Assembly: GCF_009905215.1 (NCBI RefSeq)
Contig: NZ_CP047593.1
Location: 3,228,900-3,292,899 of the forward strand
DNA: 64,000 nt
Reading direction: 5' to 3'
Origin: Tichowtungia aerotolerans
GTDB taxonomy: Bacteria > Verrucomicrobiota > Kiritimatiellia > Kiritimatiellales > Tichowtungiaceae
A model generated the notes under the pieces. It had not been told where the DNA came from. It saw nothing but the letters and a program-made list of their open reading frames with translations, and did no database searches. Each line of letters opens with the position of its first letter. The first letter of the stretch is position 1. This document shows, one piece after another, positions 17,197-21,077 of the stretch. The position numbers were made by a program, and so were the translations under genes.

Positions 17197-18906
17197 TTAT
17201 TTTGTTCTGGCTTCTACAGTTTCCTGTCGTTGCCGCAGGATTGCTTTGGAGGTAGCACATAAATACGGATCGCGGTAAGGAATTGCGCGGCGCTCATGGT
17301 TTCTTTCAATCATTGAAAAACCTGAAAGCTCTGCTTGTGTTGGCGAGGCGACGGTGCCATTGCCCATGTTGTGGCCGGGTTCCGTTTCGGCGATAAGAAA
17401 TCCAGCCTTGCGCATGGCTCCGCGCACAGGAGCGGCCGACGAATAAGTCAGCAGTACTCCGTTAGGCTTGATCACGCGATGCAGTTGTTTGAAAAAGTCG
17501 ACAGTCCACAGTTCGGGACAATGCTGCGATGAAAACGGGTCATGGAAAATAATATCAAAAGAATGATCTTTCAGAGCCTGAATCAGCCAGCGTGCGTCGC
17601 CCCAGTGGAGTGAGATTGATGAATGATGACTGCTGAAGGATGACTGTTGCAGCAGTCCGGAGAGAACCGTTTTCCAGTCAACCGGGTCTGTTTCCAATGT
17701 CTGGAAATGTTCGGCCGCCGCGCGAACAACTCGTTTGTCCATTTCCAAAGCGGTAATTTCCAGTTGATGTTCTGCTGTTTTTGCAGTGGCACAAAACGCT
17801 GCAAGTGAATTGTTGCCGAGCCCAAAACAGACATCCAGAAGTCTGATGTCCTGCGTTTTGATTTTTTCTTTCAGTCTGGCCGGAGCGACAAATTTTTGTC
17901 CTGCCTCCAGCCGTGCGCCAGTCTTTGTGTGATAGTGCTCTTTCCAATCTTCGGAGAAAAAAGTAACCGATCCATCCTCTGTGATCACCGGAGTTGCTGA
18001 AATTCGAGATTCTGTTCGTTCGGCTTTAAGCAGGTCTCCCTGGGAGATTTGACGACACGTCATCTGTTGAATCACGTAGTCCAGAAACTGACCTTTTTCG
18101 AGATGCCAGTGCGGGGCAATCAATTGATCATCCGGCGTATCGGTTGTAATTCGCATCACCGGAATTTCGGCGGGAATCCGGCGCAGAAAATCCATCAACC
18201 CTTCCGCATATTCCCAGTGGTTGAGAAGCGGGAACGGGGTCGCGGCATACTGCTCTGCCAGTTGCGTACCTTTCATCACATGCAGGTTGTGGATTTTGAT
18301 TCCGGAGATTGGAAGTTTTGCCAACTCGTCGGCGGTATTTTTCCAATCCTTTGAAATTTCTCCGGGAAGCCCAAGAATGACGTGTACAGCGACGTGGATG
18401 TTGTGTCCCGCCAGCTTGAGGATGGCCTGTTTGCTGCAGCCCCAGTCGTGACCGCGGAGGATCCGCTTCAGTGTGTCATCGTTGGCAGTCTGCACGCCGA
18501 GCTCCACCCAGACCTCCGTTTGTTTTTTGAGTGTGTCCAGAAATTCGAGTGCTTCGGCCGGCAGGCAGTCGGGGCGCGTTCCAATGCTGACCGCTTCAAA
18601 TTCGAATTTTTTCAAACATTGGAAAAGGATGCTTTGCTGGTCGGGATCAGTCAGGTCGGCAGTGAAGGCCTGAATGTAGAGCATGAATTTTTTTGCGCGG
18701 TAGCGGCGGCGAGCAAAGCGGATGGCTTCTTCGGCCTGTTCGAGTGGACTGTCCTGCCGCTGTGTCTGCTGGGCTCGTGATCCGTTTTCGGCGCAGAACG
18801 CGCAGCGTCCATGCGGACAGCTTCCGGCAATTTCGACCGGAATGCGAAAGAGCGGTTCTCCATAGCGCTCAATCATCCACGGCTTATATTGAACAAAAGA
18901 AGTCAT
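17197..18906 (-). CDS. Radical SAM (TIGR01212/YhcC-YtqA type) fused to MnmD-like methyltransferase
   Basis: 569 aa. Residues 1-300 are a radical SAM domain of the TIGR01212 family: cluster cysteines C30, C35 and C38 (CPHGRCAFC, an unusually short CX4CX2C), FTADLTDPDQQ, VWVELGVQTAND, LPGEISKDW and IKIHNLHVMKGTQLA. Residues 300-569 are a Rossmann methyltransferase of the MnmC-N/MnmD type: LLDVCFGLGNNSLAA for SAM binding and FHDPFSSQHCPELWT as active-site strand. In Bacillus, the TIGR01212 protein YtqA (MnmL) and a separate methyltransferase act in sequence on tRNA wobble uridine, so the fusion probably does both steps (inference). It overlaps the upstream kinase gene by 4 bp. Three copies of the dispersed palindrome lie inside. 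Confidence 0.85.
   Translation of the reverse strand: MTSFVQYKPWMIERYGEPLFRIPVEIAGSCPHGRCAFCAENGSRAQQTQRQDSPLEQAEEAIRFARRRYRAKKFMLYIQAFTADLTDPDQQSILFQCLKKFEFEAVSIGTRPDCLPAEALEFLDTLKKQTEVWVELGVQTANDDTLKRILRGHDWGCSKQAILKLAGHNIHVAVHVILGLPGEISKDWKNTADELAKLPISGIKIHNLHVMKGTQLAEQYAATPFPLLNHWEYAEGLMDFLRRIPAEIPVMRITTDTPDDQLIAPHWHLEKGQFLDYVIQQMTCRQISQGDLLKAERTESRISATPVITEDGSVTFFSEDWKEHYHTKTGARLEAGQKFVAPARLKEKIKTQDIRLLDVCFGLGNNSLAAFCATAKTAEHQLEITALEMDKRVVRAAAEHFQTLETDPVDWKTVLSGLLQQSSFSSHHSSISLHWGDARWLIQALKDHSFDIIFHDPFSSQHCPELWTVDFFKQLHRVIKPNGVLLTYSSAAPVRGAMRKAGFLIAETEPGHNMGNGTVASPTQAELSGFSMIERNHERRAIPYRDPYLCATSKAILRQRQETVEARTK
17691..17707. repeat. Dispersed palindrome, variant
   Basis: TTTCCAA-TGT-CTGGAAA, one mismatch to the perfect form, inside the radical SAM/methyltransferase fusion. 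Encodes HFQTLE on the minus strand. Confidence 0.7.
18339..18357. repeat. Dispersed palindrome, weak variant
   Basis: TTTTCCAA-TCC-TTTGAAAT, inside the same fusion gene, read as ISKDWK on the minus strand. Confidence 0.5.
18609..18625. repeat. Dispersed palindrome, variant
   Basis: TTTTCAA-ACA-TTGGAAA, one mismatch, same gene, encoding LFQCLKK on the minus strand. Confidence 0.7.
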
Positions 18907-19811
18907 GAGATCTGGATTTTCGGAATCAGTTCAGCGATTTGTTCCGGTTTAACAACTCCGGGCTCGACGTTCATCGCATTGGAGGTGCCGCAGGCGAGGC
19001 CGAAGGCAAAAGCCTCGGGCAGGGCGCTGCCTTTGGCGAGGGCAAAGGAAATCCCGGCGCTGACCGAATCACCGCTTCCGATTGGATTGAACGCTTTGAT
19101 CTGCGGGATTGAATAGCGGTAAACATTGTTTGGGGTCACCAGCATGGCTGAATCTTTTCCCTGTGTAATCCCTACGGCTCCGGCTCCGTGGGCAATCAGT
19201 TCGCGGGCCTGTTCGAGCGGGTCATAGGTGTCTTTAACCGTCATGGACAGCTCTTCAGTGTTAAGCTTAACGACGGATGGGCGATGAGAAAGAGTGGCGA
19301 GCAGCGGAGTTTTGGAGCTGTCGACCAGTACTTTGTCGCCGTTGGTGCACGCCATAAGTTCTGCATAGATCTCCTGCGGAACATGCGGCGGCAGATTGCC
19401 GCAAAAGACAATGCGGTCAAAGTCGGCTTGAATGCGTCCGAAGGTCTGGATAAAAGTTTTCCAGTCCCTGGACGATGGCGGTGGATTTTCTTCGACCAGC
19501 TCAGTGCAGCTGCCGTCTTCATCCGAAAGAAGTGTCTGACAGATGCGGGTTTCGGCCCCGGTGTCGACCCAGTTGCACTCGAAATCTTCTGTTTCCAGAA
19601 GCTTCTGGACTGTTTCGCCGTTGGCACCGCCGGCAAAGCTGAGCATGACGGAGTCTGCGCCGAGAATGCTAAGCACTCGCGCAGTGTTGGTTGCTTTGCC
19701 GCTGGCTGCAACCGATACTTTGAGAGCGCGGTTGACTTCGCCGGGACGGAAGCTTTTGTATTCAATGGTTCGCTGAAGGGCGGGGAAAAATCCGCAACAC
19801 AGAATTTTCAT
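18903..19811 (-). CDS. PfkB-family sugar kinase (1-phosphofructokinase/tagatose-6-phosphate kinase type)
   Basis: 302 aa. N-terminal NP-like start CCGFFPALQRTIEY, ASGKATNTARVLSILG (sugar-binding GG/GK region), and the C-terminal anion-hole and catalytic segment NPIGSGDSVSAGI with the catalytic Asp present. This matches the FruK/LacC branch rather than ribokinase. Predicted to phosphorylate a sugar phosphate with ATP in the cytoplasm; the exact substrate is unclear. It is the middle gene of a three-gene minus-strand operon, 15 bp after the amidohydrolase and overlapping the radical SAM gene, which may point to salvage of a SAM-derived sugar. Confidence 0.8.
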   Translation of the reverse strand: MKILCCGFFPALQRTIEYKSFRPGEVNRALKVSVAASGKATNTARVLSILGADSVMLSFAGGANGETVQKLLETEDFECNWVDTGAETRICQTLLSDEDGSCTELVEENPPPSSRDWKTFIQTFGRIQADFDRIVFCGNLPPHVPQEIYAELMACTNGDKVLVDSSKTPLLATLSHRPSVVKLNTEELSMTVKDTYDPLEQARELIAHGAGAVGITQGKDSAMLVTPNNVYRYSIPQIKAFNPIGSGDSVSAGISFALAKGSALPEAFAFGLACGTSNAMNVEPGVVKPEQIAELIPKIQIS

Positions 19812-19826
19812 AATAGTCTTTGTGGG

Positions 19827-21077
19827 TTACCGGCGGAACTTTTCTCTGAATTCGCGCCCTTTGGCGATGATTTCCTCTTCGCCGGGTACGTGGTGATTCT
19901 GCATCAGGATTTTTCCGTCACAGATGACCGTGTTGACACAGCAGCTGTCGGCACTGTACACCATGTCGGCGATCAGCTGATGCCCCGGAACCAAACGTTC
20001 GTTGTCAAGGTTGACCAGCATCAGGTCGGCCAGTGCACCTTCCTGAATAATGCCGCTGTTGAGTCCGAACATTTCAGCGGCGGCTCTTGTTCCGGAATGC
20101 CAAGCCACCGTGGCCGGCAGGGCGGTCGGGTCACCGGTAAAGTGCTTTTCGAGCAGCGCGGCAATCTTGATCTCCTCGATCATGCATAGATTGTTGTTCG
20201 AGGCGGCGCCATCGGTGCCGATGGCAATCTGTATTCCCGCCGCCTGCGCTTCGGTGAAGCGGAATTTTCCAGAGCAGAGTTTCATGTTCGAGGTGGGGCA
20301 GTGCAGTGCTTTAACGCCGCGTTCAGCCAGCAGTTCCATTTCGCTTTGGTTCAGCCACACACAGTGGGCGGCAGTTAGATTCGGGCCCAGAAGGCCGAGG
20401 CGGTCGAGGTATTCCGGAGGACGTATGCCGTACAGTTTCAGGCAGTCCTCGACTTCTTTTTCGGTCTCACTCAGGTGAGTGTGAATCATCAGTCCGTGTT
20501 CAGATGCGAACTCTGAGCACCAGATGAGGGCTTCTTTCGAAACCGTGTAGAGAGCATGCGGACCGAGTTGGAACTGAATGCGGTCGCTGTAGCGTTTGCT
20601 TTCGTTCAGCAGTTGTTTTGCCTGTTCGATATTGGCATCACGGCGGTCTGCATTGTTCATGTCAATGAAAACCGCTCCGAGCGCTGCGCGCATGCCCATC
20701 TCTTCCACGGCACGGGCGGTTCCATGAAAATGCCAGTACATGTCGTTAAAGAATGTTGTTCCGGACTTGATCATTTCCAGACAGGCCAGCCGGGCGCCGT
20801 GATAAACATCGTCTTCCGTGATGCCGGCTTCGAGCGGCCAGATGTGTTCGTTGAGCCACTCAAACAGTTCCAGGTCATCGGCGTAGCTGCGCATGTATGC
20901 CATCGCAGCATGATGATGCGCATTATGGAAGGTCGGCAGAACCGCCTTGTTGCTTCCGTCAATGACGGTCTCTGCACTTTTTTCTTTGCAGTCGCCGATC
21001 GTTTCAATCACGTTGCCGTTGATGAACACATCCGTTGTTAAATCGTTGTGCTGCACGCCTTGAATTAAAATACTCAT
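19827..21077 (-). CDS. Amidohydrolase, MTA/SAH deaminase type
   Basis: 416 aa, full length for the SsnA/MtaD group of the amidohydrolase superfamily. Metal ligands are in place: NAHHHAAM (HxH pair), MIHTHLSETEKEV, LTAAHCVWL and AIGTDGAASNNN. The LHCPTSNMKLCSG segment is typical of methylthioadenosine/S-adenosylhomocysteine deaminases. Predicted to deaminate an adenine nucleoside such as SAH, MTA or 5'-deoxyadenosine in the cytoplasm. Related chlorohydrolase or guanine-deaminase activities cannot be excluded. First gene of the operon leading to the radical SAM/methyltransferase fusion, whose by-products would be its substrates. Confidence 0.85.
   Translation of the reverse strand: MSILIQGVQHNDLTTDVFINGNVIETIGDCKEKSAETVIDGSNKAVLPTFHNAHHHAAMAYMRSYADDLELFEWLNEHIWPLEAGITEDDVYHGARLACLEMIKSGTTFFNDMYWHFHGTARAVEEMGMRAALGAVFIDMNNADRRDANIEQAKQLLNESKRYSDRIQFQLGPHALYTVSKEALIWCSEFASEHGLMIHTHLSETEKEVEDCLKLYGIRPPEYLDRLGLLGPNLTAAHCVWLNQSEMELLAERGVKALHCPTSNMKLCSGKFRFTEAQAAGIQIAIGTDGAASNNNLCMIEEIKIAALLEKHFTGDPTALPATVAWHSGTRAAAEMFGLNSGIIQEGALADLMLVNLDNERLVPGHQLIADMVYSADSCCVNTVICDGKILMQNHHVPGEEEIIAKGREFREKFRR

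Follow-up and report, generated by a model that had tools for sequence, protein, structure and literature searches.

The window analysed here is a stretch of 64,000 nucleotides from Tichowtungia aerotolerans, whose genome is a single contig of 3.88 Mb and 98.4% complete. On its minus strand lies an uninterrupted reading frame, with its ATG at 18906 and a stop codon ending at 17197, which encodes a radical SAM domain and a methyltransferase domain in one polypeptide. The features of this gene and its upstream neighbour are as follows.

17197..18906, minus strand: MnmL-MnmD fusion gene, complete ORF including the stop, 569 aa; TIGR01212 and PF05430 matched in a single chain
18028..18894, minus strand: radical SAM domain of the MnmL/YtqA type, residues 5-293; TIGR01212 profile match
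18793..18819, minus strand: iron-sulfur cysteine motif CPHGRCAFC, residues 30-38, with the shortened spacing CX4CX2C; read from the sequence
17386..17958, minus strand: MnmC2/MnmD-like methyltransferase domain, residues 317-507; NF033855, PF05430 and fold
17821..17826, minus strand: Phe361-Gly362, counterpart of Phe67-Gly68 of E. coli MnmC (SAM binding); domain alignment
17743..17745, minus strand: Glu388, counterpart of Glu101 of E. coli MnmC (SAM ribose); domain alignment
17539..17541, minus strand: Asp456, counterpart of Asp178 of E. coli MnmC (proposed methyl-transfer base); domain alignment
18903..19811, minus strand: PfkB-type hexose kinase, upstream neighbour, sharing an ATGA overlap with the fusion gene; TIGR03168, 217.2 bits (cut-off 216.4)

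The initial annotation had described a TIGR01212 radical SAM domain joined to an MnmC-N/MnmD-like methyltransferase, and this was borne out by one intact ORF that matched both profiles. TIGR01212 scored 228.8 bits over residues 5-293 (curated cut-off 180) and PF05430 scored 81.5 bits over residues 419-510 (gathering cut-off 22), so that both thresholds were passed. The MnmC2 equivalog profile NF033855 matched residues 317-507 with 102.9 bits (E 2e-29) and missed its curated cut-off of 136; for this reason the C-terminal domain is filed here as PF05430/MnmD-like and not as a certified MnmC2 equivalog. The same profile matched 28 of 29 fusions at 1e-8, with a best E of 1.6e-35. This best score probably corresponds to about 123 bits, in which case no fusion among the 29 would pass the cut-off of 136. 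The top PDB sequence match was 3vyw, the MnmC2 of Aquifex aeolicus (E 5e-24), and PF06962, the family of MnmM, was not among the profile matches of the window protein.

An AlphaFold2 model of the fusion protein, built from 29 aligned sequences, had a mean pLDDT of 88.5 and a pTM of 0.88. Within the N-terminal domain, model confidence was lowest in the cysteine region (pLDDT about 66-77, residues 21-50). We compared the two halves with known structures using VIA-align. The best match of the methyltransferase half was 3vyw_D (Z 26.9, rmsd 2.7, 256 aligned, model residues 302-568), and the C-terminal half is thus of the MnmC2/MnmD type by its predicted fold too. For the radical SAM half, the best match was Elp3 8asw_C (Z 24.5, rmsd 2.7, 274 aligned, model residues 12-291), and a second Elp3 structure, 6ia8, gave Z 22.8. 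Elp3 thus resembles this half in predicted fold (Z 18.6-24.5) and acts on U34, the base on which the fusion is also predicted to act, although sequence identity is low (17-22%). Elp3 makes cm5U using acetyl-CoA and carries an acetyltransferase domain.

For E. coli MnmC, PMC3648344 describes a SAM loop lined by Phe67, Gly68 and Gly70, and two charged residues in the SAM site, Glu101 and Asp178, of which Asp178 is likely the base. We followed the counterparts of these residues through 152 fused rows, a number in which the same genome may be counted more than once because several of its loci were met. The Phe-Gly pair was kept in all 152 rows (repeats included). On the same basis, the Glu101 counterpart was Glu in 144 rows, Asp in five and Gly in three, and the Asp178 counterpart was Asp in 149 and Glu in three. 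The initial annotation had also considered that the C-terminal domain might belong to another methyltransferase family; sequence, predicted fold and the conserved SAM-site residues all assign it to MnmC2/MnmD.

Three rows on long branches, L047 (G307), L058 (G279) and L216 (G300), carry Gly at the Glu101 counterpart and Glu at the Asp178 counterpart; judging from these substitutions, the second, methylating step was possibly lost there. In four fused rows from Campylobacterota, Glu is replaced by Asp and the PELW part is gone. Both kinds of decay would suit an explanation in which the radical SAM half is an MnmL, the methyltransferase half is weak or lost, and nm5U is the end product. For the window protein we consider this very improbable, since it keeps all of the key residues and matches PF05430 at the 81.5 bits given above.

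The three cysteines of the N-terminal domain, C30-PHGR-C35-AF-C38, were invariant in the 29 alignment rows. The spacing between the first and second cysteines was 10 residues in 111 of the 152 fused rows, four in 24, nine in 12 and 11 in four, and one row was truncated; L216 comes without an N-terminus and without the full motif. The 24 rows with the spacing of four comprise 22 from the genus clade of the window and two Lentisphaeria loci (L136 and L138). Thus, the CX4CX2C motif noted in the initial annotation is present as stated, but it is not a mark of the fusion, being confined to the genus clade and these two loci. Because L136 lies far from the window's genus on the radical SAM tree, the loop was probably shortened to CX4CX2C at least twice, in separate events.

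The PfkB kinase upstream is probably co-transcribed with the fusion gene, and there is no known functional link between them. It adjoins the fusion at each of the five additional loci compared within the genus and at none of the 21 compared elsewhere; we dropped it as support from the gene neighbourhood, its conservation being limited to the genus. Two genes upstream of the fusion, at window positions 19827-21077, lies an amidohydrolase that resembles 5'-deoxyadenosine/SAH deaminases. Such an enzyme would fit as a partner of a radical SAM protein. It was set aside because none of the NCBIfam cut-offs shown was reached and none of the other loci compared has it next to the fusion.

The substrate of the proposed pathway can be made in the host. 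MnmG (766.8 bits, cut-off 524.85), MnmE (362.2 bits, cut-off 252.6) and MnmA (329.3 bits, cut-off 236.95) are all over their cut-offs in the genome, and the host is therefore able to produce cmnm5U as well as thiolated cmnm5U. MnmM gave no match in the host genome at 1e-6. The absence of an MnmC oxidase domain, which the initial annotation had proposed to check, was confirmed at the curated cut-off: MnmC1 (TIGR03197) gave 13 weak matches, the best at 30.3 bits against a cut-off of 174.2, and these were short FAD-binding stretches, each covering 31-60 of 400 positions. MnmL is given as an alternative to MnmC for nm5s2U in a review (PMC12548931).

The two-domain chain is conserved across the genus and the order with 46-74% identity. 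In a search of 58 genomes, 31 (the host included) gave one match spanning at least 520 of the 569 residues, two of these 31 rows carrying one stop inside the matched stretch. Nine of the 58 had no match to the fusion protein at E 0.001, and some of the further matches were fragmentary or came from remotely related radical SAM proteins. When viral contigs were scanned with the fusion alignment, 38 pattern matches and no relatives came up.

To describe the distribution in the phylum, 288 genomes of at least 90% completeness were profile-searched for TIGR01212, PF05430, MnmM and MnmC1, and a fusion was scored where TIGR01212 and PF05430 matched in an ORF of the same length. TIGR01212 was over its cut-off in 76 of the 288 genomes, with one further weak match. 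The fusion was found in 57 of the 288; this domain-architecture search, which had been suggested beforehand, shows that the fusion is common in the phylum and not peculiar to one genome. The other MnmL genomes among the 76 were six whose PF05430 domain lies in a gene of its own (255-326 aa), four with MnmM, four with a long ORF and no PF05430 match at 1e-6, and five with a short ORF and neither a PF05430 match nor MnmM. PF05430 itself occurred in 81 genomes: besides the 57 fused and six separate cases, there were five with an over-cut-off MnmC1, 11 in which the domain lies in ORFs of 677-867 aa, G287 (one partial MnmC-like match) and G224. MnmM was found in 46 of the 288 genomes and an over-cut-off MnmC1 in five.

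None of the 57 fusion genomes carried MnmM (9.1 expected if independent, genome-level P 1.4e-5), and none carried an over-cut-off MnmC1. At the family level, the fusion was found in 12 families and MnmM in eight, with an overlap of zero where 1.4-1.6 would be expected (P about 0.15-0.19); the exclusion of MnmM by the fusion is therefore weak once kinship is counted. MnmD-type domains and MnmL are tied together far more closely. Setting aside MnmC and the Tgt-size ORFs, 64 of the 288 genomes have a domain of the MnmD type, and MnmL occurred in 63 of these 64 compared with 13 of the 224 others, counts that are also inflated by kinship. Where the MnmD-type gene was unfused, MnmL was found in the same genome in six of seven cases, and kinship inflates this figure too.

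Other arrangements of oxidase and methyltransferase were also seen. In L182:547-2190 (G259), MnmM (NF053511, 188.7 bits, cut-off 135) is fused to an MnmC1/ThiO-type FAD oxidase; judged by its domains, this chain is a counterpart of MnmC that uses the alternative methyltransferase. In L183, L184 and L196, an oxidase gene of the MnmC1/ThiO kind immediately precedes mnmM.

A wider scan was made with one genome per species, and the best 80 of at least 593 matching stretches were considered. Among these best 80 loci, fusions were found in Kiritimatiellota and Lentisphaerota, in Desulfobulbales (Desulfogranum, Desulforhopalus and Desulfobulbus records) and in Campylobacterota (Sulfurospirillum, Sulfurovum and Malaciobacter records). 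Pontiella sulfatireligans, Victivallis vadensis and Desulfogranum mediterraneum are cultured carriers among them. Single records among the same 80 were labelled Spirochaetia, Gemmatimonadetes, planctomycete, Spartobacteria and Termititenax, labels that may be in error where they belong to MAGs. A further 19 genomes with the fusion, of which 13 bear labels of other phyla and six of Kiritimatiellota or Lentisphaerota, yielded neither MnmM nor an over-cut-off MnmC1. However, two Campylobacterota fusion genomes, of a Sulfurovum MAG (L221) and Malaciobacter halophilus (L222), carry stand-alone MnmC1-like oxidases with scores slightly below the cut-off of 174.2 (169.6 and 153.2 bits, respectively), and the methyltransferase half of their fusions is altered. 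These oxidases speak against a strict either-or rule, and the two organisms may have another route besides the radical SAM step.

Trees of the two domains were built quickly, with SH-aLRT as the only support measure, from 66 fused representatives at 72% identity; L215 was added to the radical SAM tree, and L165, a split copy, was omitted. In the radical SAM tree (85 rows), a branch with 99% SH-aLRT support parts five stand-alone MnmL rows of families f37 and f58 from a clade of 79 rows, 67 of them fused and 12 stand-alone. Of the five genomes behind the f37/f58 rows, four gave a match to MnmM. Among the 12 stand-alone rows within the clade, the five of family f18 and that of G204 belong to genomes in which the MnmD-type gene stands apart, and no methyltransferase partner was found for the other six (four tested genome-wide, two within the locus). 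The placement of the MnmM-partnered and MnmD-partnered rows thus indicates that the MnmL subfamily broadly tracks the type of methyltransferase. A total of five changes between the fused and stand-alone labels were needed on the radical SAM tree and three on the methyltransferase tree, and the nesting of stand-alone MnmL rows among fused rows would suggest splits or losses.

The co-occurrence and the radical SAM tree also bear on a different explanation. Here the methyltransferase half would indeed be an MnmD, its radical SAM partner would have another role at U34 or close to it, and MnmEG would supply the nm5U for methylation by its ammonium route. E. coli YhcC, a member of TIGR01212, shares 32% identity over 266 residues with the window's radical SAM domain and differs from the fusion in standing alone and in its CX11CX2C motif. 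Since E. coli has YhcC alongside MnmC, membership of TIGR01212 cannot by itself prove the MnmL reaction. MnmEG with ammonium can yield nm5U directly (PMC9976899), and the five of 76 MnmL-bearing genomes with neither a PF05430 match nor MnmM are consistent with another role as well. However, YhcC sits on a long separate branch of the radical SAM tree, MnmL is present in 63 of 64 MnmD-type genomes, and the unfused pair occurs together in six of seven. On balance, we regard this explanation as unlikely, if worth keeping in mind.

In the methyltransferase tree (82 rows), a branch with 100% support parts the domain of MnmC (five rows) from the fused, stand-alone and Tgt-linked domains, and another branch, also at 100%, unites the Tgt-linked domains. 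The latter belong to chains in which Tgt, the queuosine transglycosylase, is joined to an MnmC2-like domain, so that two wobble-position enzymes share a polypeptide: L178:1764-3797 (G121; TIGR00430, 423.4 bits), L177 (G133), L179 (G140), L180 (G147) and L181 (G167). These are five of the 11 ORFs of 677-867 aa, the number inspected, one of them by family scan. In two related contigs (L173:4361-5927 and L174:4393-5897), a stand-alone MnmL lies right after queH, the gene of epoxyqueuosine reductase (PF02677, about 200 bits), and no MnmD-type domain was found within either locus.

The Tgt fusions in other genomes of the phylum and the two MnmL genes beside queH suggest that the queuosine pathway may draw on such parts as well, and it could be argued from them that the target of the window's protein is a different RNA or a different position. 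We give this little credence. Both halves of the protein match U34 families, the radical SAM half is matched in fold by Elp3, itself a U34 enzyme, and the Tgt-linked domains are set apart by their own 100% branch.

Taken together, profile matches, predicted structure and comparison with known enzymes lead us to the reading, with a probability of roughly three in four, that the fusion is a bifunctional tRNA enzyme which would carry cmnm5U34 through nm5U34 to mnm5U34 and stand in for E. coli MnmC. Both reactions, their order and any channelling of the intermediate are inferred. MnmE and MnmG would attach the carboxymethylaminomethyl group to the wobble base U34. The N-terminal domain would then hold a [4Fe-4S] cluster through Cys30, Cys35 and Cys38, use it with SAM to produce a 5'-deoxyadenosyl radical, and, as expected from the MnmL family, strip the carboxymethyl part to leave nm5U34. 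In our view, the likely target of the radical is a hydrogen of the CH2 that stems from glycine, and the oxidised product would then hydrolyse apart. With a second SAM, the C-terminal MnmD-type domain would methylate the free amine to give mnm5U34, or mnm5s2U34 where MnmA has thiolated the base; its likeness to MnmC2 and the conserved SAM-site residues point to this step. Linkage would hold both steps on one protein.

The proposed enzyme combines features of several known systems. In B. subtilis, MnmL (YtqA) converts cmnm5 to nm5, and the SAM methyltransferase MnmM (YtqB) acts next. The fusion is like this pair in the order of its parts, a TIGR01212 radical SAM protein for the first step and a SAM methyltransferase for the second; it differs in that the B. 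subtilis enzymes are two proteins and the methyltransferase is of family PF06962, which is absent from the host genome. E. coli MnmC resembles the fusion in carrying both steps in one chain and in its PF05430 methyltransferase (33% identity over 79 residues), whereas its first step is performed by a C-terminal FAD oxidase (MnmC1) and that of the fusion would be performed by an N-terminal radical SAM domain. The two active sites of E. coli MnmC lie about 45 A from each other (PMC3648344). The MnmD, or stand-alone MnmC2, of Aquifex aeolicus (3vyw) is the top match of the C-terminal domain in both sequence and fold and is itself unfused.

The abstract of Jaroch et al. 2024 reportedly mentions MnmL, an MnmL-MnmM operon and 'the occurrence of fusion proteins', and the fusion may thus already be in print. 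Since its parts are known and fusion proteins are reportedly mentioned in that work, we regard it as a variant architecture of known kinds, of modest novelty. A missing first-step enzyme for organisms with an orphan mnmC(m) is predicted in Cho et al. 2023, and by its domain content the fusion is a strong candidate for this enzyme. Our broader proposal, which we hold with somewhat more belief than doubt, is that the MnmL-MnmD fusion, together with the separate MnmL/MnmD pair, forms a third general solution for mnm5U34 beside MnmC and MnmL + MnmM, that it supplies the enzyme of Cho et al. 2023, and that its loop was shortened to CX4CX2C twice independently with function kept.

For the Kiritimatiellota, Lentisphaerota and Desulfobulbales lineages at least, the fusion thus provides a candidate, and the methyltransferase partner is hardly in doubt because it lies in the same chain. 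It also offers an experimental handle, that is, one gene with two predicted activities which would be separable by changing the cysteines or Asp456.
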